From NCBI RefSeq assembly GCF_000021745.1, contig NC_011666.1:3251001-3315000 (forward strand): a stretch of 64,000 nucleotides of DNA, written 5' to 3'. The DNA is from Methylocella silvestris BL2. Its GTDB lineage: Bacteria; Pseudomonadota; Alphaproteobacteria; Rhizobiales; Beijerinckiaceae. This document shows positions 4,326 through 61,078 of the stretch, piece after piece. The notes below the pieces were generated by a model that worked only from the letters and a program-made list of their open reading frames with translations, made no database searches and was not told the DNA's origin. How positions within the stretch are numbered: the first letter of the stretch is position 1; every line of letters begins with the position of its first letter. The position numbers were made by a program, and so were the translations under genes.

Positions 4326-4367
4326 ATTTTGGCTTGCGGGTCGCGCCGGCGGTTTGATTTGGATCAA
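4326..4367 (-). promoter_or_regulatory. FNR/FixK-type box with matching -10 ahead of the exporter operon
   Basis: TTGATTTGGATCAA at 4354-4367 is a perfect match to TTGAT-N4-ATCAA, the consensus for FNR/FixK/Anr proteins. On the minus strand a CAAAAT hexamer (4331 to 4326) stands where a -10 would be if the box were centred at -41.5, which puts the predicted start near 4319, about 110 bases before the HlyD ATG. This is class II activator geometry. The box is symmetric and could also act on the plus strand, but no convincing gene follows there. Box seen directly; regulation inferred. Confidence 0.6.
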
Positions 4368-5247: not shown

Positions 5248-5599
5248 CAAATACCCTTTCAAGCGGCTCGCGCCATTATCCTAGCATTGACGCCGGTGAA
5301 AACCAGCCCCGAAATCGTTTGCGCCAATGGCGCGCGCCGGCTCGCGCTCATCCCTTCGTGGCGGCGGAAGGGCAGTGTTGAGGTCACAGGCCCATGCTGC
5401 GGCGCACCAGACATGGGCGCCTTTTCGAGCCCGAGCCAGAACACGAAGAAAGGCGAAGCTTCGTCCGACTGGGGCCCTTGCCCCGCGTCGGTTGCGCTGC
5501 AACGGAAAGGCCAGTCTTTCCCAAAATACGAATCCCGCCTAATCTTGCGCAGGCGCTCGCTAAAAAGCACGGCTCAAGCTTTAGCGCCGGGAGGAAAAG
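5248..5599. other. Intergenic stretch between divergent genes
   Basis: About 350 bases separating the small minus-strand gene from the molybdopterin oxidoreductase. It must hold both promoters, but I see no clear hexamers. The overlapping frames are Ser/Arg-rich with no recognisable product. The last 15 bases carry a strong ribosome site (GGGAGGAAAAG) for the downstream gene. Confidence 0.5.
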
Positions 5600-30672: not shown

Positions 30673-32081
30673 CGCATTCGAACCGGCTATATTCGGAACT
30701 GGCGGTCGGCGAGGAGGCGTCGATCACCCGTATCGTCACTCCGAACGACCTCTATGTGTTCGCGCATGTGAGCGGCAATCTCAACCCGCTCAATTTGCCG
30801 GCGGCGCCTGGCGAGAACGCGCCCGCCGCGCCGCCGGCGGCGCCTTCCATGTGGGTCGCCTCGCTGTTTTCCGCGGTCCTCGGCAATCTATTGCCCGGCC
30901 CCGGCACGATCTATGAGGCGCAGAACCTGCGCTTCCACGCCAGGGCCCGCGTCGGCGATAAGCTGACGATATCGGTGCGGGTCGAGGCGCTGCGGCCGCC
31001 CGCGACTGTCGTGCTGCAAACCAGGGTCGAGCGCGACGGAGAACTCTTGGTCGACGGGACGGCGGAGGTCCGCGCGCCTGAGACCAAGGAGACATTCGAG
31101 CTCGTCGAGCTCCCGGAACTGCGGGTCGAGCGCCATCGCCATGTGCAGCGTTTGCTGGCCGCCTGCGCCAATCTGCCGGCGATGCCGACAGCGGTCGTCG
31201 CGCCCGAGGAAGAGAATGCGCTGATGGGCGCGCTCGCCGGGGGCAGGGAGCATTTGATCGTCCCGATCCTGATCGGCGACGAGGCGAAGATTCGTGCTAT
31301 TGCGGCCAGCCGCGGCGCCGATCTGACCGGGGTTGAAATCGAAAATCTGCCGAGCCACGACGCGGCTGCGGCGCGAGCGGTCGAACTCGTCCATCTTGGC
31401 AAGGCGCAGGCGGTGATGAAGGGGCATCTGCACAGCGATGAATTGCTGCGCCATGTCGTGAAGTCGCAGGGCGGCCTTCGCACCGGCCGGCGCATCAGCC
31501 ATGTGTTCGTCATGGACGCGCCCTCCCTGTCGCAGCTGATCCTCGTCACCGATGCGGCGATCAACATCGCCCCGACACTCGAAGAAAAAGTCGACATCGT
31601 GCAAAATGCGATCGACCTTGGCCTTGCGCTCGGCTTGGCGAAGCCCAAGGTCGGGATTCTGTCGGCGGTCGAGCTGGTCAACCCCAAGATCCAATCGACG
31701 CTGGATGCGGCGGCGCTCTCGAAAATGAGCGAGCGCGGACAGATCACCGGCGGCGTGGTGGACGGCCCGCTCGCCATGGACAATGCAATCAGCATCTCCG
31801 CCGCGCGGACCAAGGGGCTGACCTCGCTGGTCGCCGGGCGCGCCGACATTCTCGTCGCGCCGAATCTTGAATCCGGCAACATCCTCGCCAAGGAGCTGAC
31901 CTACGCCGCGCAGGCCGAGGGAGCGGGTCTTGTCATTGGCGCGAAGGTTCCCGTGCTGCTCACCAGCCGGGCGGATGATGAAGCCTCGCGGCTATTCTCC
32001 TGCGCTGTGGCCGTGCTCTATGCGCATTGGCTGGCGACCGGCAAGAGCGCGGTCGCGACCACCGAGGAGAGCGGAAGATGA
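30669..32081 (+). CDS. pta: MaoC-like hotdog domain fused to phosphate acetyl/butyryltransferase
   Basis: 470 residues. The N-terminal 140 residues form a MaoC/(R)-enoyl-CoA hydratase-like hotdog (TRIVTPNDLYVFAHVSGNLNPL, SMWVASLFSAVLGNLLPGPG, RFHARARVGDKL). The rest is a PTA/PTB transferase domain (HLIVPILIGDEAKI, KAQAVMKGHLHSDELL, ITGGVVDGPLAMDNA, GRADILVAPNLESGNILAKEL). It should interconvert acetyl-CoA (or another short acyl-CoA) with acyl phosphate for AckA. The hotdog retains the D-x4-H-like spacing only loosely (NPLNLP replaces the usual NPIH), so hydratase activity is doubtful. Overlaps both neighbours by ATGA. Confidence 0.9.
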   Translation: MTHSNRLYSELAVGEEASITRIVTPNDLYVFAHVSGNLNPLNLPAAPGENAPAAPPAAPSMWVASLFSAVLGNLLPGPGTIYEAQNLRFHARARVGDKLTISVRVEALRPPATVVLQTRVERDGELLVDGTAEVRAPETKETFELVELPELRVERHRHVQRLLAACANLPAMPTAVVAPEEENALMGALAGGREHLIVPILIGDEAKIRAIAASRGADLTGVEIENLPSHDAAAARAVELVHLGKAQAVMKGHLHSDELLRHVVKSQGGLRTGRRISHVFVMDAPSLSQLILVTDAAINIAPTLEEKVDIVQNAIDLGLALGLAKPKVGILSAVELVNPKIQSTLDAAALSKMSERGQITGGVVDGPLAMDNAISISAARTKGLTSLVAGRADILVAPNLESGNILAKELTYAAQAEGAGLVIGAKVPVLLTSRADDEASRLFSCAVAVLYAHWLATGKSAVATTEESGR

Positions 32082-33292
32082 GCCGCTGCGTCATAACCCT
32101 CAACGCCGGATCGTCCTCGATCAAATTCGCGCTGTTCCGGGAAGGGTTGACGCAAGAGGGCTCGGCGAAGGAGCTGACGCCGATGGCGATCGGCCTCGCC
32201 GAGATGGTCGGCGAGGAGCGCCGCATCACCGTCCATGACGGCGCCGGCGCCAAAATCTACGAAGTCAAACGAACGGAGCACGTCGACGCGCCGTTCCATG
32301 CCGAGGCGCTGCGGCGCATTCTCGCTTGGCGCCAGAGCGCCTTCCCGGACGCCGAGGTCGTCGCGGCGGGGCACCGCGTCGTCCATGGCGGCGTCCATTA
32401 TTCGGCGCCCGTGATCGTCACCGACGAGGTGCTCAAATATCTCCACACGCTGATCCCGCTCGCGCCATTGCATGAGCCCTATAATATTGCCGGCATTCTG
32501 GGCGCGCGCGAGGCCTGGCCTCATGTTGAACAGGTCGCCTGTTTCGACACGGCCTTCCATCGCACCCATCCATTCGTCAATGACGTCTTCGCGCTGCCGC
32601 GCCGTTTTTACGATGAGGGCGTGCGGCGCTACGGCTTTCACGGGCTTTCCTATGAATATATCGTCCGGCGCCTGCGCGAGATCGCGCCGCTTCACGCTGC
32701 CGGACGCGTCGTTGTCGCCCATCTTGGCAATGGCGCCTCGATGTGCGCGATCCGCGATGGGCTGTCGGTCGCGAGCTCGATGGGTTTTACCGCGCTCGAC
32801 GGCCTGCCGATGGGCACGCGTTGCGGTCAGCTCGACCCCGGCGTCGTGCTCTATCTGATGCAGGAAAAGAAGATGAGCGCGGCGGAGATCACAGATCTCC
32901 TCTATCGCGAGTCAGGCCTTAAAGGGCTCTCCGGCCTTTCGCATGACATGCGCGAACTTGAAGCCGCAGACACATTGGAAGCGCAGCAGGCGATCGAATA
33001 TTTCGTATTCCGCATCCGCCGTGAGCTCGGCGGTCTGGCCGCCGTGCTCAAGGGGATCGACGCCATCGTATTCTGCGGCGGCATCGGCGAAAATTCCCGC
33101 CATGTGCGCGAGCGCGTGCTTGAAGGCATGGAGTGGATCGGCGTCGAACTCGACCGCAGCGCCAACAGCGCCAACGCGGAAGTCATCTCCTCCGAGCGTT
33201 CGCGCACGCGGGTTTTCGTCATCCCGACCGACGAGGAAGGCATGATCGCAAGGCACACCTTGGCGCTGCTCGATCAGATGGCCGCCGCCTGA
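32078..33292 (+). CDS. ackA: Acetate kinase
   Basis: 404 residues from ATG 32078, which forms ATGA with the Pta stop; an ATG at 32027 would overlap Pta by 55 bases. ASKHA fold with NAGSSSIKFALF, HRVVHGG, YGFHGLSYEY, HLGNGASMCAI, MGTRCGQLDPGV and CGGIGENS. Converts acetyl phosphate and ADP to acetate and ATP, or the reverse. Last gene of the fabI-DUF3141-pta-ackA operon, allowing ATP recovery from excess acetyl-CoA or acetate assimilation. Confidence 0.96.
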   Translation: MSRCVITLNAGSSSIKFALFREGLTQEGSAKELTPMAIGLAEMVGEERRITVHDGAGAKIYEVKRTEHVDAPFHAEALRRILAWRQSAFPDAEVVAAGHRVVHGGVHYSAPVIVTDEVLKYLHTLIPLAPLHEPYNIAGILGAREAWPHVEQVACFDTAFHRTHPFVNDVFALPRRFYDEGVRRYGFHGLSYEYIVRRLREIAPLHAAGRVVVAHLGNGASMCAIRDGLSVASSMGFTALDGLPMGTRCGQLDPGVVLYLMQEKKMSAAEITDLLYRESGLKGLSGLSHDMRELEAADTLEAQQAIEYFVFRIRRELGGLAAVLKGIDAIVFCGGIGENSRHVRERVLEGMEWIGVELDRSANSANAEVISSERSRTRVFVIPTDEEGMIARHTLALLDQMAAA

Positions 33293-39522: not shown

Positions 39523-41118
39523 ATGCCGCCAGCCGAACGTTTTGAAATCCTTCTTATGCTGATCGCCGCCGTCATCCCGCTTGAGCTCGCGGCGCGGCGG
39601 CTGCGCTTTCCGCCCTCCGCCATGCTGACGCTCGGAGGGATCGCGATCGCCCTCGTCCCGGGCGCGCCGGAGATCAACGTCGATCCCGATCTGATGCTCA
39701 TCCTGTTCCTGCCGCCGCTTCTCTTCTCGAGCGCCTATTTCACCGTATGGCGCGATTTCAAAGCCGATCTGCGCGTCATCCTTCAACTCGCGGTCGGGGC
39801 GGTCGCCTTCACGACGCTCGCCGTTGGCCTCGCCGCCCATGCGATCGTTCCAGGCCTGCCCTGGGCCGCCTGTTTCGCGCTTGGCGCCATCGTGTCGCCG
39901 CCCGATGCGGTGGCGGCGAAGGCGGCGCTGCAGGGCCTTTCCCTGCCGCGCCGGCTTGTCACGCTTCTCGAAGGCGAAAGCCTCGTTAACGATGCGACCG
40001 GACTCGTGCTCTATCGGCTCGCCATCGCGGCCGGACTGACCGGAGCCTTCAATATCTGGTCGGGGGCGGCGGAGTTCGCCTTTCTCGCAGCGGGCGGCGT
40101 CGCCGTCGGCGTCGCTCTCGGGTTTCTGGGATCGAGCCTGCTTGGGCGGCTCGACAACGTCCATTTGAACATCGTGGCCGGATTCCTCGGCGCCTTCGCG
40201 TCCTATATTATCGGCGAGCAACTCCATGTCTCGGGGGTGCTGTCAACGGTCTGTTGCGGCCTCGTCCTCGGCCAGCGCCAGCACAGTGTTTTCCCCGCGC
40301 TCACGCGCCTCCAGGCGACGGCGGTCTGGCAGGTCGCCGTCTTCCTTCTGGAATCGCTGGTCTTCATCCTGATCGGCCTGTCCCTGCGTCCTGTCCTGCA
40401 TCGTCTCGCCGAGGCGGGCGTCGAGGCGAGCCAGTTCGCTCCGGCGATCGGCGTCATTCTGCTCGCCATGACCGCGGCGCGCTTCGCGTGGATCCTGACG
40501 ACGGCCTATGTCCCCCGCTTTCTCATCCCGTCGCTGCGGGCGCGGGACCCTTATCCGCCTCTCGCCGTGCCGATCGTGATGAGCTGGGCCGGCATGCGCG
40601 GCGTCGTCAGCCTCGCCGTCGCCCTCTCGGTGCCGGCAGGCTTTCCGGGTCGCGACTTCATCATGGCCGCCACCATGGCGGCGATCCTCGCCTCGATCCT
40701 GATTCAAGGGACAACTTTGCGGGCGCTCGTCACAGCGCTGCGGCTCGGCGACGGCTTCGCGCTGAAGGGCGACGGCCGCAACCTCTCGCAACATGAGGCT
40801 CACGCGCGAATCATCGCTGCGGAGGCGAATGCGATCGAGGCCATCTCGCGCCAGCCGGACGGGACCGAGCGGCACCCCCGCCTACTCGATCAGTACCGTC
40901 GCCGCGCCTCCGTCGCGCAGCGTCTTGTCGAGGCGGGAGAGACCCTCGCCGCCGATCGGCGGGCGCATTACGAGGCGGTTCTCGAGGCGAACCGCGCCGG
41001 GCGCGCCGAATTGTTGCGGCTTCACCGCGCCGGTGAAATTCACGATTCGACGCTGCATGCGCTCGAGGCCGAGATCGACATCGAGGAACTCGGCGCGCGG
41101 AAAATGCTCGATCGTTGA
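39523..41118 (+). CDS. Na+/H+ antiporter, CPA1/NhaP type
   Basis: 531 residues with about 12 TM helices to residue 400 and a soluble C-terminal domain of about 130 residues. CPA1 marks are LLFLPPLLFSSAYF-like LILFLPPLLFSSAY, the ion site AIVSPPDAVAAKAAL and LLEGESLVNDATGLVLYRLA, with MSWAGMRGVVSLAVALSVP late in the membrane domain. Exchanges cytoplasmic Na+ or K+ for protons. The helical, charged C-terminus (RRASVAQRLVEAGETLAADRR) may be regulatory. It stands alone after the tRNA. Confidence 0.93.
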   Translation: MPPAERFEILLMLIAAVIPLELAARRLRFPPSAMLTLGGIAIALVPGAPEINVDPDLMLILFLPPLLFSSAYFTVWRDFKADLRVILQLAVGAVAFTTLAVGLAAHAIVPGLPWAACFALGAIVSPPDAVAAKAALQGLSLPRRLVTLLEGESLVNDATGLVLYRLAIAAGLTGAFNIWSGAAEFAFLAAGGVAVGVALGFLGSSLLGRLDNVHLNIVAGFLGAFASYIIGEQLHVSGVLSTVCCGLVLGQRQHSVFPALTRLQATAVWQVAVFLLESLVFILIGLSLRPVLHRLAEAGVEASQFAPAIGVILLAMTAARFAWILTTAYVPRFLIPSLRARDPYPPLAVPIVMSWAGMRGVVSLAVALSVPAGFPGRDFIMAATMAAILASILIQGTTLRALVTALRLGDGFALKGDGRNLSQHEAHARIIAAEANAIEAISRQPDGTERHPRLLDQYRRRASVAQRLVEAGETLAADRRAHYEAVLEANRAGRAELLRLHRAGEIHDSTLHALEAEIDIEELGARKMLDR

Positions 41119-41922
41119 GGGCGGGGGACTTCGCTTCCTTTCAGAAACGGACGTTGCGCCAGCGCCGATCTGCGACCTGAATCATCCTCGTCGGCCGTCG
41201 TAGCGCCGCCTGCAGCTAACCGGTCTGCGACTATCCAATCATTCGATCACGCCGGGTTGATCAGGCTTGGCGCAAATCAGGACTCCGCCCGGCCGCGAAT
41301 CGAGGATTGCAGACGCACAACTGAACGTTCCATCGAGCCCCGCCGATGGCCCAAACCTCGCGCCTTGCAGCCGCCGGTTTTCGGCGGCCCTAATCCTCAC
41401 CCTATCCTTGTATTGTAGGTTGGTCGGCAAGCGGAAGCTTGGGCGCCGCTGCTTGCCGAACTGCAATCGCTTTCCTTGCAACATTGCGCCGCGGCCCGGC
41501 GACGCCAGCGACAGCCTCCGCGTATTTGACAAAGAGATGACGCGATCGGGCTTATTCGCCCGTCAGCGCCTCTTTGAGGCCTTCGACCATGTTGGGCCCT
41601 TGGACTTGGTCAGCCTTGCCTTCGGAGTGTAGCTCGGCGCCGCGGCGAAGCTCTGCCGTGGCAGGCGTTGAACCGCTTTCCCGCAAACCACCTAAGTAGT
41701 TTCCGAGCCTATCGCTCCATCTCTCGCCATGGTATCAGGAAAGCGCGCCCGGGATTTAAGGGGCCGGCCGCGCATGAGAGGTCTTGTGGAGCAAAGGCTC
41801 CCTCTCGCCGCCCACACGAATTGACCACAGGAGATTTGGCTCGTGACATCCTTCAGGGGGAGGATACGGCGCGGCTTTGGGCCGGCTGAAAAAAGAGCTG
41901 CGGTCCCCTGGAGGGATCAGCC
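41119..41922. other. 800-base region before the PFOR island, gene content unclear
   Basis: No gene I can support with confidence. A minus-strand frame open from 41734 to a TAA at 41552 has protein-like composition (TAELRRGAELHSEGKADQV then GPNMVEGLKEALTGE) but no plausible start, and may be a gene remnant. The other frames are shadows. Ribosome site TGGAGGGATC precedes the MFS gene. No FNR box, NifA site or sigma-54 element found upstream of the island. Confidence 0.4.
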
Positions 41923-43197
41923 ATGACGGTGATCGCTGCAAGCATCGAGGCGCCCGCCAAACCGGAAGCGTCGCGGACCGCATTCATCATTGCGTGGGCG
42001 CTCTGCCTCATTTTCTACTTCCTGCAATATGCGCTGCGTTCTGCGCCGGGCGTGATGATCCCGGAACTGACGGCCGCATTCGGCCTCACGACGCTGGGCG
42101 TCAGCGCGCTGCTCGGCATGTATTATTATACCTACGCCGCCTTTGCGCTTGTCTCAGGCGCGTCGCTGGATCGATTTGGCGCCAAGCTGCCGATCTTCAT
42201 CGGCGTTCTGTCCACCGCCATCGGCAGCGTGTTGTTCGGCTTCGGCGCAATCACCACAGTGGAAGGCGGACGGCTGCTGCAGGGCGCGGGTTCGGCCTTC
42301 GCCTTCACCGGCGCCGTCTATCTCGCCGTGCATGGCTTTTCGGGGAAATGGCTGGCGACCGCTATCGGCGTCACGCAGCTCTGCGGCATGCTCGGCGGCT
42401 TCGCCGGGCAATTCGCGGTCGGTCCCCTGGTGCATGGCTCGATCGGCTGGCAGTCCTTTTGGTTCTACGCAGGCGCTGCGCTGACGGCGCTAGCGGTTCT
42501 GATGCTGGTAGCGACGCCTGCAAGCCATGACAAAGTTCATGGCTCTCTCTTGACCATGTTCGCGCCTTACAAGGTCGTGCTGACGAACCCGCAATCCTAC
42601 CTCTGCGGAATCATTGGCGGCCTTCTGTTCATGCCGACGACAATCGGCGACATGATCTGGGGAGTCCCGTTGCTGCATCAGGGTTTCGGGATCGCGACGG
42701 AAGAAGCGGTCGCGCGATCATCGATGGTGCCGCTCGGTTGGGTGATCGGGGCCCCGCTTCTCGGCTACCTTGCCGACCGGATTGGCCGCCGCAAGCCCGT
42801 CCTTATCGCGGGCATCGCGCTTATGATGATATCGGGTCTCGGCATTTCATATCTTGAGGCGTTTATCCCTCCCTATTTCGGCGGCCTTCTCTTCGGGATA
42901 GGGTCCGGCGCGGCCATGATCCCTTACTCGATGATCAAGGAAGCCAATCCGGACAACGTCAAAGGCAGCGCGACAGGCGCCATGAATTTCCTGGTCTTCA
43001 GCCTGAGCGCTTTTCTCGCGCCGGTCTTCGGCTTGGCCCTCATGCGATTGTCCGGCGGCAGGCCGCTGACGCTGGATCACTTTCACCACGCTGACTACAT
43101 CTGGGGCGGCGCCATCGTGCTGTCATTCATTCTGACGCTTTTCCTGCGCGAAACCGGGGCCGCCGCCCGGCAGACGCCCGCCGCAAGCGCATCCTAA
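41923..43197 (+). CDS. MFS transporter
   Basis: 424 residues, 12 predicted TM helices. Major facilitator marks are the loop 2-3 motif GASLDRFGAKLPIF (about 74-87), GRLLQGAGSAFAFTGAV and the repeat-2 loop GYLADRIGRRKPVLIAG. The family is broad and the substrate cannot be read from sequence; organic acids or sugar acids are possible given the pyruvate enzyme downstream. The stop is 19 bases before the GltD-like gene, so it is the first gene of the PFOR operon. SD TGGAGGGATC about 8 bases before the ATG. Confidence 0.9.
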   Translation: MTVIAASIEAPAKPEASRTAFIIAWALCLIFYFLQYALRSAPGVMIPELTAAFGLTTLGVSALLGMYYYTYAAFALVSGASLDRFGAKLPIFIGVLSTAIGSVLFGFGAITTVEGGRLLQGAGSAFAFTGAVYLAVHGFSGKWLATAIGVTQLCGMLGGFAGQFAVGPLVHGSIGWQSFWFYAGAALTALAVLMLVATPASHDKVHGSLLTMFAPYKVVLTNPQSYLCGIIGGLLFMPTTIGDMIWGVPLLHQGFGIATEEAVARSSMVPLGWVIGAPLLGYLADRIGRRKPVLIAGIALMMISGLGISYLEAFIPPYFGGLLFGIGSGAAMIPYSMIKEANPDNVKGSATGAMNFLVFSLSAFLAPVFGLALMRLSGGRPLTLDHFHHADYIWGGAIVLSFILTLFLRETGAAARQTPAASAS

Positions 43198-43216
43198 AGA
43201 AGGATCGAGATCGCAC

Positions 43217-44875
43217 ATGACAGCGCTGAAGTCCGATTTCACCCCGGTCGTCGACCTTCTACACGAAAAAGGCGCCGGTCCTGTCCGCACGCGTCAGCCG
43301 CACTACGTCGACCTTATGCCGCCTTGCAACAACGCCTGCCCGGCTGGCGAGAATGTGCAGGCCTGGCTCGATCTGGCGCAGGCTGGAAAATACCGCGACG
43401 CCTGGGAGACGATTTTACGCGAGAATCCGTTCCCCGCCGTCCATGGGCGCGTTTGCTATCATCCCTGCGAGACAGGCTGCAACCGCGCTCAGCTTGACAG
43501 CGCGGTCAGCATTCACGCGGTGGAGCGGTTCCTCGGCGATCTGGCGACGGCGCAGGGCTGGACCCTGCCCGTGACGGCGGCGCCGACCGGCAAGCGCATC
43601 CTCGTGGTCGGCGGCGGCCCGAGCGGATTGTCGGCGAGCTATCATCTTACGCGCTTGGGTCATGAGGTTGAAATTCGTGAAGCGGGGCCGCTGCCCGGCG
43701 GCATGCTGCATTTCGGCATCCCCGCCTATCGGTTGCCACGCGACGTTCTGATGACGGAGATCCGCCGCATCGAATCCATGGGCGTGAGGATCACGCTCAA
43801 TCACAAGGTCGAAGACGTGCTCGCCGAACAGGCCGAGGGTAAATTTCACGCCGTATTCATTGCGATCGGAGCCCAGATCGGAAAGCGCATCGACATCCCG
43901 GCGCGCGACGCGGCGCGCGTGATCGACGCCATCACGCTGCTTCATCAGGTCGAAACAGGCGAGCCGCCGCGCCTTGGCCGTCGCGTTGTGATTTATGGCG
44001 GCGGCAATACGGCGATGGATGCGGCCCGCACCGCGCGCCGGCTTGGCGCCGAGGAGGCGATCATCCTTTACCATCGCGACCGCGCCCACATGGGCGCACA
44101 GGCGTTCGAGACCGACGAGGCGCTCTCGGAAGGCATCAAGATCAAATGGCTCAGTACGATTAAAGATATCGGAGAAGGCGAACTCACCGTCGAAGTGATG
44201 CAGATGGATGAGCAGGGCCATCTGCAACCGAGCGGGCGCCTCGAGACCCTTTCCGCCGATTCCGTCGTCCTGGCCCTGGGTCAGCAGACCGATAGCGGCT
44301 TCCTGCGCAATGTGCCCGGAGTCGCCTTCCTGGCTGGAGGCACAGTCAAGGTGGACGACGCCATGATGACCGGCCGGCCGGGACTTTTCGCCGGCGGCGA
44401 CATGGTGCCGAGCGAACGAACCGTCACAGCAGCGGTAGGCCACGGGAAGAAGGCCGCACGCCACATCGACGCGTGGCTGCGCGGAAAGCCGGTGCAAACC
44501 TCCGCGAAACACCCGATCGTCGACTTCGCTCTGCTCAACTTGCCCATATACGCCGACGCGCCCCGCTCGGTGCAAACTGAAACAGAAGCGGATCAGCGGA
44601 TCAGCCATGGCTTCGAAGAGACAACAGCCGGGTTGAGCGAAACCGAAGCGCGCTATGAGGCGCGGCGCTGTCTCTCTTGCGGCAACTGCTTCGAGTGCGA
44701 CCAATGCTATGCCGCCTGCCCGGAACAGGCGATCGTCAAGCTGGGGCCGGGCTTGCGCTACCGCTATGATTTTGATCGCTGCACGGGCTGCGCCGTCTGC
44801 TACGAGCAGTGTCCCTGCCACGCAATCGAGATGATCCCCGAACCCGCCAAAGCCGCGCCGGAGCAAGTGGCATGA
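43217..44875 (+). CDS. GltD-like NAD(P)H flavoprotein with C-terminal ferredoxin domains
   Basis: 552 residues. N-terminal iron-sulfur domain with C37, C41, C80, C84 and C88 (PPCNNACPAGENVQAW; CYHPCETGCNRAQ). FAD loop LVVGGGPSGLSASYHL (about 129-144) and NAD(P) loop VVIYGGGNTAMDAARTARRLG (about 257-277), as in glutamate synthase small subunits and NfnB. Beyond these, residues 485-535 add CLSCGNCFECDQCYAACPEQ and CTGCAVCYEQCPCHA, enough Cys for two [4Fe-4S] clusters. No large glutamate synthase subunit is nearby, so it probably moves electrons between ferredoxin and NAD(P)H. Ends in ATGA overlap with the PFOR gene. Confidence 0.9.
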   Translation: MTALKSDFTPVVDLLHEKGAGPVRTRQPHYVDLMPPCNNACPAGENVQAWLDLAQAGKYRDAWETILRENPFPAVHGRVCYHPCETGCNRAQLDSAVSIHAVERFLGDLATAQGWTLPVTAAPTGKRILVVGGGPSGLSASYHLTRLGHEVEIREAGPLPGGMLHFGIPAYRLPRDVLMTEIRRIESMGVRITLNHKVEDVLAEQAEGKFHAVFIAIGAQIGKRIDIPARDAARVIDAITLLHQVETGEPPRLGRRVVIYGGGNTAMDAARTARRLGAEEAIILYHRDRAHMGAQAFETDEALSEGIKIKWLSTIKDIGEGELTVEVMQMDEQGHLQPSGRLETLSADSVVLALGQQTDSGFLRNVPGVAFLAGGTVKVDDAMMTGRPGLFAGGDMVPSERTVTAAVGHGKKAARHIDAWLRGKPVQTSAKHPIVDFALLNLPIYADAPRSVQTETEADQRISHGFEETTAGLSETEARYEARRCLSCGNCFECDQCYAACPEQAIVKLGPGLRYRYDFDRCTGCAVCYEQCPCHAIEMIPEPAKAAPEQVA

Positions 44876-47800
44876 ACGTCGCCGTGACACAGCAGACCGC
44901 GATCGACAAGGCCGCGACGCAGAAGACCGCGACCATGGACGGCAATACCGCCGTCGCCTACATCGCCTACCGGGTTAATGAGGTCTGCGCGATCTATCCG
45001 ATCACGCCCTCTTCGACGATGGCGGAACTGGCCGACGAATGGGCCTCGGCCGGGGTCCGCAACATCTGGGGCGACATACCTGTCGTGCAGGAGATGCAGA
45101 GCGAGGGCGGAGCCGCCGGCGCGGTGCATGGCGCGCTCCAGTCCGGCGCGCTGACGACGACTTTCACCTCGTCGCAGGGCCTGCTTCTGATGATCCCCAA
45201 CATGTACAAGATTGCGGGGGAGCTGACGGCGACGGTCTTCAATGTCGCGGCGCGCTCGGTCGCCACGCAGGCGCTGTCGATTTTTGGCGACCATTCGGAC
45301 GTGATGGGCGTCCGCGCCACCGGCTTCGCGCTCCTGTCGTCGGGCTCTGTTCAGGAGGCGCATGATCTGGCGCTGATCGCCCAGGCGGCGACGCTCGAAA
45401 GCCGCGTTCCATTCCTGCATTTTTTCGACGGGTTTCGCACCTCGCACGAGCTGAACAAGCTCACGCTTTTGTCGGATGACGAAATCCGCATGATGGTCCG
45501 CGACGATCTCGTCCGGGCGCACCGCGCCCGCGCTCTGACGCCGGAGCGGCCGGTGATGCGCGGAACGGCGCAAAATCCCGACACGTTTTTTCAGTCGCGC
45601 GAGACGGTGAACCCCTTTTACGCGCGCACGCCCAGCATCGTCGAAAAGGCGATGGCGGATTTCGCCAACATCACCGGGCGAAGCTATCGCCTGTTCGAAT
45701 ATGACGGCGCGCCCGACGCGGAGCATGTGGTCGTGTTGATCGGTTCGGCGGCTGAGACCGCGCGCGACGCCGCCGCCGTGTTGAATCGAACCGACGGGCG
45801 GCGGAAACGGGGCGTGCTGCAGGTGCGCCTCTATCGCCCATTCTCCGCCGATCATTTTCTCTCCGCCCTGCCTGACACGACGCGATCCATCGCCGTTCTG
45901 GAGCGCACAAAGGAGCCGGGCGCGACCGGCGAGCCGCTCTATCTCGACGTCGTCGCCACGCTCGCCCACGCCGTCGGCGCGGGCCGCCGGGCGATCATGC
46001 CGCGCATGATCGGCGGCCGCTATGGGCTGTCGTCGAAAGATTTTACGCCCGCGATGGTGAAGGCCGTCTTCGACGAACTGGAAAATCCTTCGCCGCGCAA
46101 CAGCTTCACCGTCGGCATCACCGACGACGTGTCGGGGACGAGCCTAGATGTTGACCAAGGATTCATGATCGAGCCGGACGAGGTGGTGCGCGCCGTCTTC
46201 TACGGGCTTGGATCGGATGGAACGGTCGGCGCCAACAAGAGCAGCGTCAAGATCCTGGCGGAGGACGCCGACCGCTATGCGCAGGGTTATTTCGTCTATG
46301 ATTCGCACAAGTCCGGCGCCCAGACGGTTTCTCATCTTCGCTTCGGGCCGCGCCCGATCCGCGCGCCCTATCTGATCGCCGCAGCGAGCTTCGTCGCCTG
46401 TCACCAGTTCGTGTTCCTCGACCGCATCGACGTCCTGTCGCTCGCGGCGCCCGGCGCGACCTTTCTCCTCAACTGTCCATATGACGCCGACAAGGCGTGG
46501 GACCGCCTGCCGCGCTCGGTCCAGCAGGAAATCATCGACAAGCGCCTGCGGTTTTTCGTCATCGACGCATCGAAAGTCGCGCGCGACACCGGGCTTGGCG
46601 GCCGGATCAATACGGTGCTGCAGACCTGCTTCTTCGCGATCTCGGGCGTGCTGCCGCGCGATGAAGCGGTGCAGCGCATCAAGCATATGATCGAGGAAAG
46701 CTATGGCGAAAAGGGCGGCGACGTCGTCGCCAAGAACTTCGAGGCCGTCGACCACACCCTCGCCCATTTGAGCGAGGTTGCCGTCCCGACATCGGCGAGC
46801 AGCGCTTTCGAGCGGCCGCCGATCGTGTCGGCGTCGGCGCCGGCCTTTGTGCAAAATTTCACGGCTGCGGTCATGGCGGGGCGAGGCGACGCGCTCCCGG
46901 TCAGCGCCATGCCCATCGACGGTACATTCCCCTTGGGCACAGCCGCCTGGGAAAAGCGCAATATCGCGGACGAAGTTCCAATCTGGGAAACAGATCTCTG
47001 CATCCAGTGCGGCCAGTGTTCGATCGCCTGCCCGCATTCGGTCATCCGCGCGCGATTCTACGATGAAGCGCGGCTCGCCGATCCGAACGAGCCCGCGCCG
47101 CCGACCTTCAAATCGGCGCCGGTCAATGCGCGCGGCTACCCCGACAGCCGCTTCACCCTGCAATTCTACGTCGAGGATTGCACCGGTTGCGGGATCTGCG
47201 TCGAGGTTTGTCCCGCCCACAGTCCGAGCCGGCCCGGGACCAAAGCGATCAACATGGGTCCGAAGGCGCCGCTGCTCGAGGCTGAGCGGAGCAATATCGC
47301 CTTCTTCGAATCGCTCCCGGAAAACAATCGCGCCCTGGTCGATTTCGCCAATGTGCGGGGCATCCAGTTCCTCGAGCCCTTGTTTGAGTTCTCGGGCGCT
47401 TGCGGCGGCTGCGGCGAGACGCCCTATCTTCGACTCCTCTCGCAACTGTTCGGCGATCGGCTGCAGATCGCCAATGCGACTGGCTGTTCTTCGATTTACG
47501 GCGGCAATCTGCCGGTCACGCCTTGGGCCGCCAACCGCGAAGGACGCGGGCCCGCCTGGTCCAACTCGCTATTCGAAGACAACGCCGAATTCGGCCTTGG
47601 CTTTCGGCTGGCCGCTGACATGCACAGCGCAATGGCGGCGAAGATGTTGCGCGATCTCGCGCCGACGCTTGGCCAGCAACTGGTCGATGCGATCCTGGAG
47701 GCGCCGCAGATCCGCGAATCCGAGATCCTCGCGCAGCGCAGCCGCGTCGCCGAATTGAAACGGCGCCTCGCCGAGATGGGCGAGGATCCCCGCGCGCTGG

Positions 47801-48525
47801 ATCTCCTATCTGTGCTGGACCATCTCGTTCGTCGCAGCATCTGGCTGGTCGGTGGCGACGGCTGGGCCTATGACATCGGCTATGGCGGTCTCGACCACGT
47901 GCTCGCGTCCGACCGCGACGTCAATGTGTTGGTGCTCGACACCGAGGTCTATTCAAACACCGGCGGCCAGGCCTCGAAAGCGACGCCGCTCGGCGCTGTC
48001 GCCAAATTCGCCGCCGCGGGCAAGCGCGTGGGGCGCAAGGACCTCGCCCTGCAGGCAATCGCCTATGGGAATGTTTATGTGGCCCAGGTGGCGATGGGCG
48101 CCAATCCGCAACAAACCCTGCTGGCGTTCCGCGAGGCCGAGGCGTGGCCAGGACCGTCGCTGATCCTCGCCTACAGCCACTGCATCGCGCATGGCTTCGA
48201 TCTGCGCCACGGAATGCGCCAGCAGGATCTGGCGGCCGCCTCGGGCTACTGGCCGCTGTTCCGCTTCAATCCGGCGATGCGCAATGCCGACGAAGCGCCG
48301 TTCAGGCTCGATTCGCCGCGCCCGACGATCCCGCTGAAGGACTACGCCTACAATGAACTGCGCTATCGCAGCCTCGCCAACATCAGGCCGCGCGAGGCGG
48401 CCGAGCTGCTCGCCCACGCGCAGACCGCAGCAACCGAAAAATATGCGCAATATGAGGCGCTCGCCAGCCGCGACGGCAGCCGTTTCCACCCCGACGTCAG
48501 CGCGCTCGGCGCAGAGAAAAGCTAG
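44872..48525 (+). CDS. nifJ: Pyruvate:ferredoxin (flavodoxin) oxidoreductase, single-chain
   Basis: 1217 residues from ATG 44872 (ATGA with the previous stop); an ATG at 44809 would add 21 residues inside the upstream gene. All fused domains are present: pyrimidine-binding domain (YPITPSSTMAELADEW), CoA/transketolase-C-like domain (GVLQVRLYRPFSADHFL), EKR/gamma domain (AGTVGANKSSVKILAED-like, about 455), two [4Fe-4S] sites (CIQCGQCSIACP about 709; CTGCGICVEVCP about 769), and the TPP domain (ACGGCGETPYLRL, TGCSSIYGG, GDGWAYDIGYGG, NTGGQASKATPLG). Oxidises pyruvate and CoA to acetyl-CoA, CO2 and reduced ferredoxin or flavodoxin. In diazotrophs NifJ feeds nitrogenase. Confidence 0.97.
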   Translation: MNVAVTQQTAIDKAATQKTATMDGNTAVAYIAYRVNEVCAIYPITPSSTMAELADEWASAGVRNIWGDIPVVQEMQSEGGAAGAVHGALQSGALTTTFTSSQGLLLMIPNMYKIAGELTATVFNVAARSVATQALSIFGDHSDVMGVRATGFALLSSGSVQEAHDLALIAQAATLESRVPFLHFFDGFRTSHELNKLTLLSDDEIRMMVRDDLVRAHRARALTPERPVMRGTAQNPDTFFQSRETVNPFYARTPSIVEKAMADFANITGRSYRLFEYDGAPDAEHVVVLIGSAAETARDAAAVLNRTDGRRKRGVLQVRLYRPFSADHFLSALPDTTRSIAVLERTKEPGATGEPLYLDVVATLAHAVGAGRRAIMPRMIGGRYGLSSKDFTPAMVKAVFDELENPSPRNSFTVGITDDVSGTSLDVDQGFMIEPDEVVRAVFYGLGSDGTVGANKSSVKILAEDADRYAQGYFVYDSHKSGAQTVSHLRFGPRPIRAPYLIAAASFVACHQFVFLDRIDVLSLAAPGATFLLNCPYDADKAWDRLPRSVQQEIIDKRLRFFVIDASKVARDTGLGGRINTVLQTCFFAISGVLPRDEAVQRIKHMIEESYGEKGGDVVAKNFEAVDHTLAHLSEVAVPTSASSAFERPPIVSASAPAFVQNFTAAVMAGRGDALPVSAMPIDGTFPLGTAAWEKRNIADEVPIWETDLCIQCGQCSIACPHSVIRARFYDEARLADPNEPAPPTFKSAPVNARGYPDSRFTLQFYVEDCTGCGICVEVCPAHSPSRPGTKAINMGPKAPLLEAERSNIAFFESLPENNRALVDFANVRGIQFLEPLFEFSGACGGCGETPYLRLLSQLFGDRLQIANATGCSSIYGGNLPVTPWAANREGRGPAWSNSLFEDNAEFGLGFRLAADMHSAMAAKMLRDLAPTLGQQLVDAILEAPQIRESEILAQRSRVAELKRRLAEMGEDPRALDLLSVLDHLVRRSIWLVGGDGWAYDIGYGGLDHVLASDRDVNVLVLDTEVYSNTGGQASKATPLGAVAKFAAAGKRVGRKDLALQAIAYGNVYVAQVAMGANPQQTLLAFREAEAWPGPSLILAYSHCIAHGFDLRHGMRQQDLAAASGYWPLFRFNPAMRNADEAPFRLDSPRPTIPLKDYAYNELRYRSLANIRPREAAELLAHAQTAATEKYAQYEALASRDGSRFHPDVSALGAEKS

Positions 48526-48534
48526 GACAGGCGC

Positions 48535-49548
48535 ATGGATCTCCGCACCCGCTATCTCGGCCTTTCTCTGCGCACCCCGCTGATCGCGTCGGCGTCGCCG
48601 CTCTCGGGCGATGTCGGACTCATTCGACAAATGGAAGATTCGGGCGCAGGCGCCGTAGTGCTGCCATCGCTGTTCCAGGAGCAGATCGAGGAGGAGGCGC
48701 GAGCAGCCGATGAGCTCGCAAGAATCGGCGCCGACAGCTCTCCGGAAGCAAGCTCCTATTTTCCGGCGGTCGTTACGTATAATTCGGGACCGCACGGCTA
48801 CCTCGATCTCGTCGCCCGAGCGCGCGCCGCCGTCGACATCCCCGTTATTGCAAGTCTCAATGGAACAACCGTTGCCGGCTGGGTCGATTATGCAAGGCTG
48901 ATCGAACAGGCCGGAGCGACAGCCCTCGAACTCAACATCTATCGGATCGCGTCCGGGCCCGGCGTGACGGGCGGGCAGGCCGAGGCCGATTGCGTGGCGC
49001 TGCTCGAAGCCGTCCGCAGCCGGGTCAAACTTCCCGTGGCCGTCAAGCTGCATCCCTACTTCTCGGCGTTCGGCGATTTCGCCCAGCAGCTCGATCACGC
49101 AGGCGCCGACGGGCTGGTTCTCTTCAATCGCCTCTACCAGCCCGATATCGACCTCCTTCGCCTGGCCTGGAAAAATGACGCGACGCTGAGCGGCGCGGGC
49201 GAGATCCGGCTTGGCCTGCTCTGGCTCTCCGTTCTCTCGGGCCGGTTGCCGCATGCCTCGCTTGCCGCGGGCACGGGCGTCGATACCGCCGAGGAGGTGA
49301 TTAAATACATTCTTGCGGGCGCGAATGCCGTGATGACGGCCTCGTCGCTACTGCGGCATGGACCCGGGCATCTGCGCACGCTTGTCTCGGGTTTGGAGAC
49401 GTGGCTGAGCACAAGAGGCTTTGCTTCGGTCAGCGCGATCACGGGATTGATGCGGCCTTCTCATCCGGACTCAGAGGCCGAGGCGGACGAGCGCGGCAGC
49501 TACATCGAGAGTTTGTCGAGCTATCAGGGTCCGTATGTTCGCCATTGA
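48535..49548 (+). CDS. Dihydroorotate dehydrogenase-like FMN protein
   Basis: 337 residues, TIM-barrel FMN-binding fold: LRTPLIASASPLSGDVGLIRQM, PVIASLNGTTVAGWVDYARLIEQAGATALELN, PVAVKLHPYFSAFGDFAQQL, GADGLVLFNR, and ANAVMTASSLLRHGP. Where true dihydroorotate dehydrogenases have the active-site loop N-[SC]-P-N, this protein reads LNIYRIASGPG, so the catalytic Ser/Cys base is missing. It sits 9 bases after nifJ, a common pairing for this family, and is more likely an electron-transfer or accessory partner of PFOR than a pyrimidine enzyme. Confidence 0.85.
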   Translation: MDLRTRYLGLSLRTPLIASASPLSGDVGLIRQMEDSGAGAVVLPSLFQEQIEEEARAADELARIGADSSPEASSYFPAVVTYNSGPHGYLDLVARARAAVDIPVIASLNGTTVAGWVDYARLIEQAGATALELNIYRIASGPGVTGGQAEADCVALLEAVRSRVKLPVAVKLHPYFSAFGDFAQQLDHAGADGLVLFNRLYQPDIDLLRLAWKNDATLSGAGEIRLGLLWLSVLSGRLPHASLAAGTGVDTAEEVIKYILAGANAVMTASSLLRHGPGHLRTLVSGLETWLSTRGFASVSAITGLMRPSHPDSEAEADERGSYIESLSSYQGPYVRH

Positions 49549-49725
49549 CGCGTTAAGGGCATCTGGGGCCCCACAGCCCCACGCCTCGAGAAAATCGCCA
49601 AGAGCCTAGAGATTAGGCCCTTCGAAATAATCGGGGCGGTCGCCAACATCGGCGCGGCGAGCAAGGCCCTCAACGCGCTCCACATCCAGTACGAGAAAAA
49701 AAGCGCCGAAACGGCCAGCGCGGGG
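49549..49725 (+). pseudogene. Possible remnant of an XRE helix-turn-helix gene
   Basis: Directly after the dihydroorotate-dehydrogenase-like stop, and in the same frame, the sequence reads VKGIWGPTAPRLEKIAKSLE and then IRPFEIIGAVANIGAASKAL. This resembles the second half of an XRE/Cro DNA-binding domain (the P-x-x-x-L-x-K-I-A-x-x-L pattern). No start or first half is present, so it would be a decayed fragment. The rest of 49726-49900 is not recognisable. Confidence 0.3.
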
Positions 49726-49900
49726 ATGAGCGCGACGGCGGAGACGTCGCATCTCTCGTGCGATTGTGCATCGGCAATCATAACGTCCGGGCTAGCTGCG
49801 ACGCGGTCGACGCCGCGCCGGCCTCGGGGCTCGATCGCGCAGACCGAAGGATCCATCCCCTCAAGCGTCTCGCCAAGAAACAAGCCGGGCAGAGAAAATC

Positions 49901-49975
49901 TGGAGCGGGCGAAGGGATTCGAACCCTCGACCCCAACCTTGGCAAGGTTGTGCTCTACCCCTGAGCTACACCCGC
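49901..49975 (-). tRNA. tRNA-Gly (anticodon GCC)
   Basis: 75 bases including encoded CCA. Read on the minus strand, acceptor GCGGGTG pairs with CGCCCGC; D arm AGCTC/GAGC; anticodon stem CAACC/GGTTG around TTGCCAA, anticodon GCC; T arm GAGGG-TTCGAAT-CCCTT. Located between the PFOR island and the ribosomal operon, transcribed away from rpsM. Confidence 0.97.
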
Positions 49976-50563
49976 ATCCATCCGGCGGCTGCGGAGCCGA
50001 CGGTTTCGGCTATATGGCGCAAACGAATTGCGATTGCAACAGCCGGTTTCGCCAATTCGGCGGCCGCAGCCTGCGCTTTTCCGGCGCGGCCGCCGCGAAA
50101 AGACGTCGCGCCGAGTTAGCGGCGCGGGGCCGCTGTACGCCTCAGGCCCGAGGGGGCGCGCAAAACAGGAGTCTCGCCAAGAAATGCTCCGCCAAGGCCT
50201 CGCCAAGACTACGCCTTGCCAAAAACGCTCGGCCGAGAAACGTTCCGCCAACACAGAAGCGTCAGGAACGCTCGTCGCGCCGCCGCTTTTCAGCGCGTCC
50301 GCCCCAGCCGTCTTGCGGGGACGGCGTCCGCATCCCACCTCACGGACTATCATCGTTGTGCGAGTCATTGTTTGCGCTTGACGGGCTGGCGCAAATCGTC
50401 TATCGCCCCTTCTTCAGCCTGAAACGCATGTTTCCGGGGCCGCTTATTGCGTTTTCGATTGAGTTAGGCGCCCCGCATGGGCCGGCCTCCACCGGACGCG
50501 GGCATTTATTTTATTTCGCCGCTGCGCGCCTTGCCGCCGCCGCGGCCGATATGGAGACAGGTT
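49976..50563. other. Intergenic region upstream of the alpha ribosomal operon
   Basis: About 590 bases. It holds the rpsM promoter candidate and a run of imperfect GCCAAG-containing words (50173-50290). The secY and adk genes normally found here are absent. Plus-strand frames are Arg/Ser/Pro-rich and not convincing. Confidence 0.5.
50378..50406 (+). promoter_or_regulatory. Candidate promoter of the rpsM-rplQ operon
   Basis: TTGACG (50378-50383), 17-base spacer, TATCGC (50401-50406). The CTTGAC -35 is strong for alphaproteobacteria and the -10 is weak. It would give a leader of about 150 bases before rpsM. Needed if the operon has been separated from the upstream spc genes. Confidence 0.4.
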
Positions 50564-59251: not shown

Positions 59252-61078
59252 ATGAAAGCAGCGGGCCGCAGCCGGGGCCTTGTTGAGCGCCTGTTACTCG
59301 TCGTGCTGACTCTGTATGGCCTGGCGCTGATCGTTCCGGACTATTATCGTCTCGTCCGGCCGCTCGGCGCTTTTGGCTTTTTCGCAAACAACGACGGCCT
59401 GATCTTCGACGTCAAGGGACCCTTTGCCCAGGAGTCCTTGTCGCCCGCGTGGCAGGCGGGATTGCGCGTCGGCGATCGCATCGATTTGCCGAAGATGCGC
59501 TGCGTTCCGGTCGATACGATCACTTGCGCGACGATGCTCGCGGTGCGGGGCGGCCAGCAACGGGTCATGCCCGGCCGCGTCGGCGCGCTCTGGCTCGCGG
59601 AGGGATCTCCCCGATCGGGAGATGAAATCGCACTCGCCGCGCAGGTCCCGCCATCGGACTGGCTGCTCGACCTCATCGTCTTTCTCGACCAGAGCGCCGG
59701 CGTGCTTTTTCTCCTCGGCGCGGCATGGCTGGTATGGATCCGGCCGGGACGCATGACCTGGGGCTTCTTTCTTTATGCGGTCCAGTTCAATCCGGGGCAG
59801 GAATTCGAAATTTACGCCAGGCTGCAACAATGGCCCGCGGCCCTGCTCGCGCAAGAAGCGGCCAACGGCTTGTTTCAGGCGGCAGGATATGCCGGCTTCA
59901 TCCTCTTCGCGCTGCGCGCGCCGACGGGTCGCATCGGGGCGTCGTGGCGTCCGCTTGAGCGCGCGCTGCCGGCGCTGGCGGTCGGCTTCGGCTTAGTCTC
60001 TGTTCTCGCCGTCGGAAGCGCTTTCGGCTACCGGACGGAGGCGCTGTCCCGGACGGTTCTCATCGCGGGTCTTTTTGTAAGCTTTCTCGTGCTCGCCATC
60101 CTGCTTAAACGGCGAAAGGATCTGGAGCCGCAGGAATTTCAGCGCTTGCGCTGGGTGATCTGGGGCTGTCTCATCGGCCTTCCGGCCTGCGTGATCGCGT
60201 CGCTTGCGCAGTCGACGTCATTGATGGAATTTTCCCTCACCGAAGACGCGATCGGCCTGCTTTTCCTGGTCAATGGCGTTCTCGGCATCTTCGTCGTCGA
60301 GGCGATCCGCCGGCCGAGGGTGATCAATGTTTCGATTCCGCTACGGCGCGCCACCGTGCTCGGACTTTTGCTGAGCGCGCCCGCGCTTTTCCTGCACGGC
60401 CAGATCGAAGAGCTGCACGAATGGATCCACTTTCCGGCGTGGGCGTCGGTCGTCATTGCGTCTATTCTGCTGTTTGCGATCTCGCGCCTGCACGAACACG
60501 CCGTGCGCCTCCTCGAAGGCTTGTTCGATCCTGACCGCCGCGGCGCGGAGGCGCGCTTTGCGCAAATCGGAGCCGCGGTCCTCGCCGCAAAAAACGCCGC
60601 GGAAATCGACCGGCTTCTGGTTGAGGGTCCAGCGCGCGCGCTTGGCATTGCGTCGGCCGCCGTGTTTCGCAGCGACGGCGCCCAATTGAGGCGCTATGAG
60701 AACGGCGTCGGGTGGACCCCGGCGATGACGGCCGCGCTCGACCCGGAAGACCCTTTGCTGGCGCAAAAGACGGCCGGATCCTTGTTCGAGATCGACCCCG
60801 CGTTGATGCGGAGGGGAGAATTTCCGGAGGGGCCGCAGCAGCCTACGCTTGCTGCGCCCATCGGCGACGCGCTGCGCTGCTTCGCCGTCGCGCTCTACGG
60901 CGCGCAGACATCCGGCGCCAATCTCGACGGCGCCGACCGCCGCGCTCTCGAAAAGCTCGCCGCGACCGCGGCCGCCGCTTATGCAGGGGTCGAACGCGAG
61001 GCGCTGAGAACGCAAATCGCGGCGCTCGAGGCGCAGGCGCCGATCAATGCAAAACCGGCGTCCCAGGCCGGATGCTGA
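59252..61078 (+). CDS. Multi-TM protein with PDZ-like and GAF domains, no output domain
   Basis: 608 residues. TM helix near residues 11-30; a periplasmic PDZ-like region (about 45-110, SPAWQAGLRVGDRIDLPK); seven or eight TM helices between about 133 and 412; then a cytoplasmic GAF domain (about 430-590: RLLVEGPARALGIASAAVFRSDG and LAAPIGDALRCFAVALYGAQ). The arrangement resembles the input half of sensor kinases with 7TM-GAF architecture, but no kinase, cyclase or HTH follows and the frame stops at GC. Not linked to a response regulator here. Function unknown; I am confident of membrane topology, less of the GAF assignment. Confidence 0.75.
   Translation: MKAAGRSRGLVERLLLVVLTLYGLALIVPDYYRLVRPLGAFGFFANNDGLIFDVKGPFAQESLSPAWQAGLRVGDRIDLPKMRCVPVDTITCATMLAVRGGQQRVMPGRVGALWLAEGSPRSGDEIALAAQVPPSDWLLDLIVFLDQSAGVLFLLGAAWLVWIRPGRMTWGFFLYAVQFNPGQEFEIYARLQQWPAALLAQEAANGLFQAAGYAGFILFALRAPTGRIGASWRPLERALPALAVGFGLVSVLAVGSAFGYRTEALSRTVLIAGLFVSFLVLAILLKRRKDLEPQEFQRLRWVIWGCLIGLPACVIASLAQSTSLMEFSLTEDAIGLLFLVNGVLGIFVVEAIRRPRVINVSIPLRRATVLGLLLSAPALFLHGQIEELHEWIHFPAWASVVIASILLFAISRLHEHAVRLLEGLFDPDRRGAEARFAQIGAAVLAAKNAAEIDRLLVEGPARALGIASAAVFRSDGAQLRRYENGVGWTPAMTAALDPEDPLLAQKTAGSLFEIDPALMRRGEFPEGPQQPTLAAPIGDALRCFAVALYGAQTSGANLDGADRRALEKLAATAAAAYAGVEREALRTQIAALEAQAPINAKPASQAGC

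Follow-up and report, generated by a model that had tools for sequence, protein, structure and literature searches.

The DNA analyzed here, hereafter the window, is a 64,000-nucleotide stretch (positions 3251001-3315000) of the single-contig, 4,305,430-base genome of Methylocella silvestris BL2. On its plus strand, positions 41923 to 49548 carry four genes that encode, in order, a major facilitator superfamily (MFS) transporter, a GltD-like iron-sulfur flavoprotein, the single-chain pyruvate:ferredoxin oxidoreductase (PFOR) NifJ, and a dihydroorotate dehydrogenase-like (DHOD-like) FMN barrel. Judged from sequence, and with modest confidence, the unit may well encode a pyruvate:NAD(P)+ oxidoreductase assembled from separate parts, together with an FMN companion. 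PFOR is commonly depicted as working with ferredoxin alone. If a portable NAD(P)-facing subunit serves both single-chain and split pyruvate oxidoreductases (PORs), POR would act as a pyruvate:NAD(P) oxidoreductase in many bacteria. The DHOD-like partner adjoins nifJ in many phyla and is easily mis-annotated as a pyrimidine enzyme.

The trio of GltD-like, PFOR and DHOD-like genes is of a known kind; its mechanism has already been postulated in print and is biochemically unproven. Section 3.4.3 of a Propionibacterium study (PMC7650540) describes a PFOR gene flanked by a DHOD-like gene and a GltD-like gene, the latter with an additional ferredoxin-type site; the trio is co-transcribed there, PFOR knock-out severely crippled growth, and a bifurcating complex is postulated. 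Three contiguous gene types around nifJ are common to both organisms, a likeness by description and not by direct sequence comparison, whereas the present unit belongs to an alphaproteobacterium and has an MFS gene in front. A table in PMC11368403 groups nifJ (sll0741), sll0743 and sll0744 (dihydroorotate dehydrogenase) of Synechocystis as transiently up-regulated microoxic genes; nifJ is accompanied by a dihydroorotate dehydrogenase as here, but no GltD-like gene is listed alongside in that table. The system had been called incompletely described in the initial annotation, an apt choice of words, as "undescribed" would be wrong given the published postulate. Neither a biochemical test of the trio nor a tested function for the DHOD-like partner was found in the open-licence papers searched.

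Layout and conservation of the gene unit

The GltD-like gene (43217..44875, plus strand, 552 residues, PRK12771) overlaps nifJ (44872..48525, plus strand, 1217 residues) by the four bases ATGA, such that the nifJ start codon lies at 44872. The MFS gene ends 19 bases before the GltD-like gene, and 9 bases separate nifJ from the DHOD-like gene (48535..49548, plus strand, 337 residues, PRK07565). From this spacing, we infer that the four genes form one transcription unit. Profile hidden Markov model (HMM) searches placed the three core proteins above curated cut-offs. The GltD-like protein scored 771 bits against the NF009410 cut-off of 516, a family whose curated name is "NAD(P)-binding protein", and the DHOD-like protein scored 393 bits against the NF005741 cut-off of 303 ("dihydroorotate dehydrogenase-like protein"). 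NifJ matched positions 2-1166 of the 1167 in TIGR02176 with 1701 bits (cut-off 911.35) and is related by phmmer to the solved structures 6cin_A, 7plm_A and 1b0p_A. The gene positions, the overlap and both gaps are exactly those given in the initial annotation, and its assignments of a GltD-like protein with ferredoxin sites, a PFOR, a DHOD-like protein and an MFS transporter were borne out by the HMM searches.

Conservation of the unit was assessed in 190 genomes of the same class, in 79 cyanobacterial genomes, and in a locus sample from many phyla, made up of the 80 top-ranking DHOD-like loci out of at least 587 present in named genomes. Within the class, a DHOD-like protein above cut-off occurs in three genomes, and a fourth genome (G035) has a frame-broken copy; all four share the gene order GltD-like, PFOR, DHOD-like. 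With PFOR above cut-off in 22 of the 190 genomes, four of which carry the DHOD-like gene when the broken copy is counted, the association has a Fisher p of 0.00014 with G035 and 0.0014 without it. In the broken copy (L103:7723-8689), on a draft contig, the DHOD-like gene is split over two frames within an otherwise complete four-gene unit. A close DHOD-like match is present in 6 of 60 relatives, the M. silvestris genome included. Two genomes of the same genus, G191 (L106:8443-9387) and G203 (L108:8314-9258), hold a second DHOD-like copy besides the one in the PFOR unit, with no PFOR within the stretch covered.

In the locus sample, PFOR is the next gene upstream on the same strand, within about 500 bases, in 72 of 80 cases; as the loci were chosen by their DHOD-like gene, this count is uninformative on how often PFOR stands without one. 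A GltD-like gene is present in 24 loci, directly upstream of PFOR in 23, and the remaining case (L192) is a distant match (34%) located downstream. Seven loci (L121, L124, L126, L130, L132, L138 and L169), several of them Magnetospirillum-like, have a DHOD-like gene without a PFOR neighbor, and PFOR is encoded elsewhere in six of these seven genomes. Among the cyanobacteria, 23 of 79 genomes have the DHOD-like gene and 22 of these also have PFOR above the curated cut-off, compared with 49 of 79 overall (Fisher p 3e-5; 0.00026 with a looser E limit, under which 53 of 79 genomes count as PFOR-bearing). The DHOD-like gene lies 31-713 bases from PFOR in 20 of the 23, and it is found in 22 of the 49 PFOR-bearing genomes. 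The association of PFOR with the GltD-like and DHOD-like genes is thus not due to chance, and the three probably constitute a functionally linked, conserved module. The MFS gene is present in only one of the 80 loci.

The GltD-like family is not confined to single-chain PFOR. Its cut-off was passed at 14 places in 13 of the 190 genomes of the class, six beside a single-chain PFOR and six beside a split alpha/beta POR. At the open reading frame (ORF) level, the split operons L113, L057 and L059 read gamma, alpha, beta, GltD-like, with the POR subunits named by HMM in L113 and L057. A CX2CX2CX3C motif scan revealed no separate PorD beside the GltD-like gene of the split operons within the stretches covered: within the coding frames of the operons themselves (L113, L114, L115, L073 and L074), the motifs belong to the GltD-like tail, and the remaining hits lie in two other frames, a divergent one of 1503 residues in L113 and one of 51 residues in L057/L073. 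The 1503-residue frame lies on the minus strand of L113 adjoining the split POR operon; its four cluster motifs span 1433-5465 and it includes a GltD-like part (35%, 3834-5324). The PorD-type tail of the GltD-like protein, the lack of a separate PorD in these operons, the proximity of the family to PORs and the circular permutation described below together suggest that the GltD-like protein is most likely the NAD(P)-facing output subunit of a POR.

The permuted flavoprotein and the FMN barrel

HMM searches divide the GltD-like protein into Fer4_20, Pyr_redox_2 and a C-terminal 4Fe-4S dicluster. Residues 28-115 (43298..43561, plus strand) correspond to the second part of the GltD N-terminal cluster domain, with Fer4_20 matching residues 35-114 from profile position 30 onward, and hold Cys37, Cys41, Cys80, Cys84, Cys88 and Glu103. 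The FAD and NAD(P) Rossmann domains, including Arg172, follow at residues 127-410 (43595..44446, plus strand; Pyr_redox_2 6.1e-34). The first part of the GltD domain is found near the opposite end of the chain, at residues 455-489 (44579..44683, plus strand), where profile and HMMER comparisons identified it together with Cys485 and Cys488. In 19/19 canonical PreT-type proteins, a profile built from residues 455-500 aligns with the N-terminal region up to the CxxC pair, inside PreT-type residues 10-74 (E 1e-5 to 0.06 within the set of 19), and a profile of residues 30-115 aligns with the region just after CxxC. HMMER alignments with 5jca_L and 4ylf_B display the same arrangement, the N-termini of these chains being matched in a separate segment. 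On these alignments, the GltD domain is circularly permuted. Cys485 and Cys488 replace the absent N-terminal pair, which would place the PorD-like dicluster beside the GltD cluster ligands.

The tail itself, residues 490-542 (44684..44842, plus strand), is a PorD-type dicluster ferredoxin with two CX2CX2CX3C sites, whose cysteines are kept in 29/29 relatives. It is recognized by PorD_Arch (3.3e-12) and TIGR02179 (2.2e-11), in both cases under the cut-off; 26 of the 29 family members match PorD_KorD at E 1e-8, and the L113 relative exceeds the TIGR02179 cut-off (62.5 versus 60.05). The alignment of the family leaves out the L114 row, which has a stop codon in its chosen stretch. Across the whole protein, 15 of the 16 cysteines are conserved in 29/29 relatives and Cys534 in 28/29. 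The 15 invariant cysteines and Glu103 would suit four [4Fe-4S] clusters.

Three known systems provide a frame for these features. The best phmmer matches include the StnC-type chains 9bov_A and 8oh5_C, colinear over residues 28-495. In PMC10482914, the GltD domain of StnC is described as holding FAD, NADPH and two [4Fe4S] clusters and as passing electrons without bifurcating. By analogy, StnC of the Stn transhydrogenase (PDB 8oh5) may serve as a working model for the GltD-like protein, with PFOR taking the place of the NuoG-like domain: both have the permuted RCLxC segment and an FAD, NADPH and Fe-S wire, whereas StnC has a NuoG-like domain in place of the PorD-like tail and Lys in place of Glu at the cluster ligand position. 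NfnB/NfnL of the NADH-dependent ferredoxin:NADP oxidoreductase (PDB 5jca) shares the GltD fold and the Glu and Arg FAD-site pair, but is unpermuted, lacks the PorD-like tail and has NfnA rather than PFOR as its partner. Dihydropyrimidine dehydrogenase (PDB 1gte, 1h7w) and PreT/PreA comprise similar kinds of domains, and the former is the best fold match of the DHOD-like protein; unlike dihydropyrimidine dehydrogenase, the DHOD-like protein has lost its base, and PreT has Gln/Lys at the FAD site. Relative to PreA, the dicluster is presumably on the opposite chain here.

The possibility that the flavoprotein mainly serves a distant GltB was considered and rejected, as the protein belongs to its own NF009410 family and its GltD scores are far under cut-off. 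The scores of 181 versus 447.7 (TIGR01317) and 209 versus 483 (TIGR01318) likewise dismiss a glutamate synthase small subunit. The closest GltB-type match lies at a distance of about 412 kb, and the top-scoring one at about 949 kb, in agreement with the original remark that no glutamate synthase large subunit is adjacent.

The FMN barrel was annotated as lacking the base of dihydroorotate dehydrogenase (DHODH), and the alignments agree. The catalytic Cys of DHODH, which we take to be its base, aligns with Arg137 (codon 48943-48945) in two of three HMMER alignments and falls in a gap in the third, and a Cys at positions 135-141 is found in 0/84 relatives. Position 137 is Tyr in 43 of the 84 sequences, Phe in 16 and Ser in five. 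The underlying alignment omits 4 of the 80 loci, which have a stop in the stretch, and includes L105 but not its near copy L107. Invariant residues are Asn134, Lys171, Asn198, Arg199, Trp116 and Trp230, the first three of which are presumably FMN-site residues as in DHODH. The structure model has a predicted local distance difference test (pLDDT) score of 86.3, with class 1 DHODH chains among the best folds after dihydropyrimidine dehydrogenase. The protein begins directly at the barrel and has no Fe-S domain. The DHOD-like protein would be a PFOR companion that no longer performs dihydroorotate chemistry. A role in pyrimidine metabolism was rejected on the basis of the lost base, low scores in the PreA (58.6 versus a cut-off of 335) and DHOD (86.4 versus 269) models, and a full-length DHO_dh match elsewhere in the genome, presumably PyrD.

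The history of the module was traced on a midpoint-rooted FastTree tree of 89 PFORs, from which eight duplicate rows had been removed beforehand. The DHOD-like gene alone accompanies 36 of these PFORs, both partners accompany 31, the GltD-like gene alone three, and 19 have neither. The labels change twice for GltD and three times for DHOD. A DHOD-bearing clade of 68 rows, in which 34 have just the DHOD-like gene, 31 both genes and 3 just the GltD-like gene, contains every GltD-bearing PFOR. Its members come from Bacteroidota, Ignavibacteriota, Acidobacteriota, Chloroflexota, Cyanobacteriota, Pseudomonadota and others; the DHOD-only rows L148 and L192 lie outside it, beside rows with neither gene. 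For the DHOD-only rows L118 and L145, the contigs stop 16 and 23 bases upstream of PFOR, where a GltD-like gene would not be visible, and L118 accounts for one of the two GltD changes. The simplest reading is that PFOR gained the DHOD-like partner and then the GltD-like one, with some losses and horizontal spread. That the DHOD-like gene came first is inferred, because the root is a midpoint and the sampling DHOD-based. In many phyla the DHOD-like gene is found with PFOR where no GltD-like gene is present, so PFOR or reduced ferredoxin should be the partner it first worked with.

Proposed electron path and alternative explanations

The proposed path builds on directly observed gene layout, families, co-occurrence, tail homology, permutation and residue conservation. 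PFOR would oxidize pyruvate with CoA to acetyl-CoA and CO2, releasing single low-potential electrons. The GltD-like protein would dock via its PorD-type dicluster tail, and the electrons may run through its clusters to FAD, from which a hydride would pass to NAD(P)+, a route that is reversible in principle. The DHOD-like protein, predicted to bind FMN, would be a companion of the PFOR clade that probably predates the GltD-like subunit; electron transfer between it, PFOR or reduced ferredoxin and a putative further partner is probable, and any second substrate it may have is a guess.

Several observations weigh against an NAD(P)-linked assembly of this kind. Because a dicluster is already built into single-chain PFOR, the PorD-like tail would be an addition and not a replacement. 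The tail of the M. silvestris protein scores under the PorD cut-off (43.7 versus 60.05 for TIGR02179), and the AlphaFold model of the flavoprotein is poor, with a mean pLDDT of 68 and values mostly below 50 in the tail. At two of the 14 GltD-like places in the class (G001:C77 and G044:C1) no POR was seen alongside, in a scan that scored only the best few candidates per genome. Eight of the 80 DHOD-like loci, one of them (L176) on a truncated contig, have no PFOR in the stretch covered, a whole-genome search of G253, which carries L138, found no PFOR at E 1e-30, and one of the 23 cyanobacterial genomes with the DHOD-like gene (G263) has no PFOR. The assembly also leaves the role of the DHOD-like protein unexplained.

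The foremost alternative, possible but unlikely in our estimate, is that the trio is a bifurcating or confurcating complex, as postulated in PMC7650540 and much as the initial annotation suggested. NAD(P)H electrons would be divided at the FAD of the GltD-like protein, some going to a low-potential PFOR or ferredoxin path and the others to a higher-potential path through the FMN barrel, or the process would run in reverse. Glu103 and Arg172 are present in 29/29 GltD-like relatives. In alignments, the equivalent FAD-site residues are Glu/Arg in 5jca_L and 4ylf_B, Lys/Arg in 8oh5_C, 9bov_A and 9n5u_A, Gln/Lys in 19/19 PreT-type proteins, and Glu/Lys in 5/5 other GltD-like ORFs, the latter being those of 12 fetched regions that passed the ORF filter, whether or not they adjoin gltB. 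Chain 4ylf_B was deposited as dihydropyrimidine dehydrogenase subunit A, and we take it to be NfnB-type. At these positions the family has the combination of 5jca_L and 4ylf_B, and differs from the StnC-type chains in one of the two residues. As described in PMC10482914, R201 of NfnB bonds N5 of the FAD, and the NfnB Glu occupies the position of the StnC Lys. The Glu/Arg pair may accordingly be read as an NfnB-type signature; it provides the chief new argument for the bifurcation postulate, which it makes more plausible, though as a signature only. The co-transcription and the severely crippled growth of the nifJ knock-out in Propionibacterium (PMC7650540) point in the same direction.

Against bifurcation, the unit encodes no NfnA homologue, and its only other flavin-type protein is the DHOD-like barrel, which lacks an Fe-S domain to reach the FAD. 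The 36 tree rows in which the DHOD-like gene stands beside PFOR without a GltD-like gene (L118 and L145 among them truncated upstream), and the genomes G026 and G158, in which GltD-PFOR occurs without a DHOD-like match above cut-off, argue against it and equally against a fixed four-part complex. The quinol-oxidizing role proposed for the DHOD-like protein in PMC7650540 is not supported by the family scores: TIGR01037, a class 1 model, recognizes all 84 relatives, and no single quinone-dependent model recognizes more than seven of them at E 1e-8, which speaks against that role and, as the protein starts at the barrel, against a quinone version of bifurcation. Slightly less probable than bifurcation in general is its particular form as a new PFOR-linked architecture, in which a permuted GltD with an NfnB-type FAD site and a PorD-type wire would sit between PFOR and a base-less DHOD-fold FMN protein, built stepwise from PFOR, FMN barrel and flavoprotein. 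If true, such a machine would spare cells a separate Nfn or Rnf for pyruvate oxidation, or for pyruvate synthesis from NAD(P)H.

A more doubtful alternative holds that PFOR is a normal ferredoxin or flavodoxin reductase, feeding for example nitrogenase, and that the two flavoproteins are independent enzymes, also ferredoxin-linked, whose only tie to PFOR is co-expression. NifJ enzymes supply nitrogenase in some bacteria, nifH is present in the M. silvestris genome, and some DHOD-like genes stand alone in genomes with PFOR elsewhere. However, nifH is about 0.7 Mb from the unit, and strict NifA, FNR and sigma-54 patterns have no match in 41120-41923, where only loose ones occur. The tight spacing, the gene order conserved across phyla, and the split-POR operons with a PorD-like tail inside the GltD-like protein also disagree with mere co-expression. 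That the GltD-like and DHOD-like proteins together form a dihydropyrimidine dehydrogenase of the PreT/PreA type or a dihydroorotate dehydrogenase is highly improbable: their pooled domain set resembles dihydropyrimidine dehydrogenase, as does the top fold match, but the missing Cys, the PreA and DHOD scores, the DHO_dh match elsewhere and the Gln/Lys pair of PreT all contradict it.

A pyruvate:NAD(P)+ oxidoreductase with an FMN companion remains our preferred reading. Of the electron exchange between ferredoxin and NAD(P)H proposed in the initial annotation, what stands is a conserved three-protein module in which the most plausible role of the flavoprotein is to connect PFOR electrons with NAD(P)H; the incomplete sets above and the rarity of the MFS gene speak against a fixed four-part complex.

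Transporter gene and genomic surroundings

The MFS gene (41923..43197, plus strand) encodes a 424-residue protein that matches Pfam MFS_1 at 8.5e-42; no NCBIfam model, including those of MFS subfamilies, was above cut-off. The gene occupies the same position before the GltD-like gene in G197 (98%), G035 (75%) and L150 (61%), and a homologue is divergently oriented in G211 (63%). An MFS gene beside the trio was seen only in a few alphaproteobacteria. It looks like an optional accessory neighbor and a late addition. The suggestion that it imports a carbon substrate was a guess that found no support; its cargo is perhaps pyruvate or another organic acid, itself a guess.

No sigma-70-like promoter was found in 41100-50000, where shuffled sequences yielded a mean of just 1.4. 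A tRNA-Gly (gcc) gene lies on the minus strand at 49901-49975, about 350 bases past the DHOD-like gene, with its 3' end facing the unit. A tRNA-directed island was rejected, since no exact direct repeat of at least 14 bases from 49881-50000 occurs elsewhere in the window, and the GC content is similar to that of the window. Among 15 genomes of the genus, M. silvestris included, the antiporter upstream has a close orthologue (91%) only in G197.

Elsewhere in the window, a 608-residue ORF at 59252-61078 has no Pfam match at E 1e-6, and a 710-residue molybdopterin oxidoreductase with an Fe4S4 domain is encoded at 5600-7732. A phosphate acetyl/butyryltransferase gene (30669-32078) overlaps that of acetate kinase (32027-33289) and is preceded by a short-chain dehydrogenase/enoyl reductase gene (27389-28231) and a DUF3141 gene (28294-30669). 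The transferase and kinase pair lies about 9 kb upstream of the unit and, together with PFOR, would convert pyruvate to acetate with formation of ATP.

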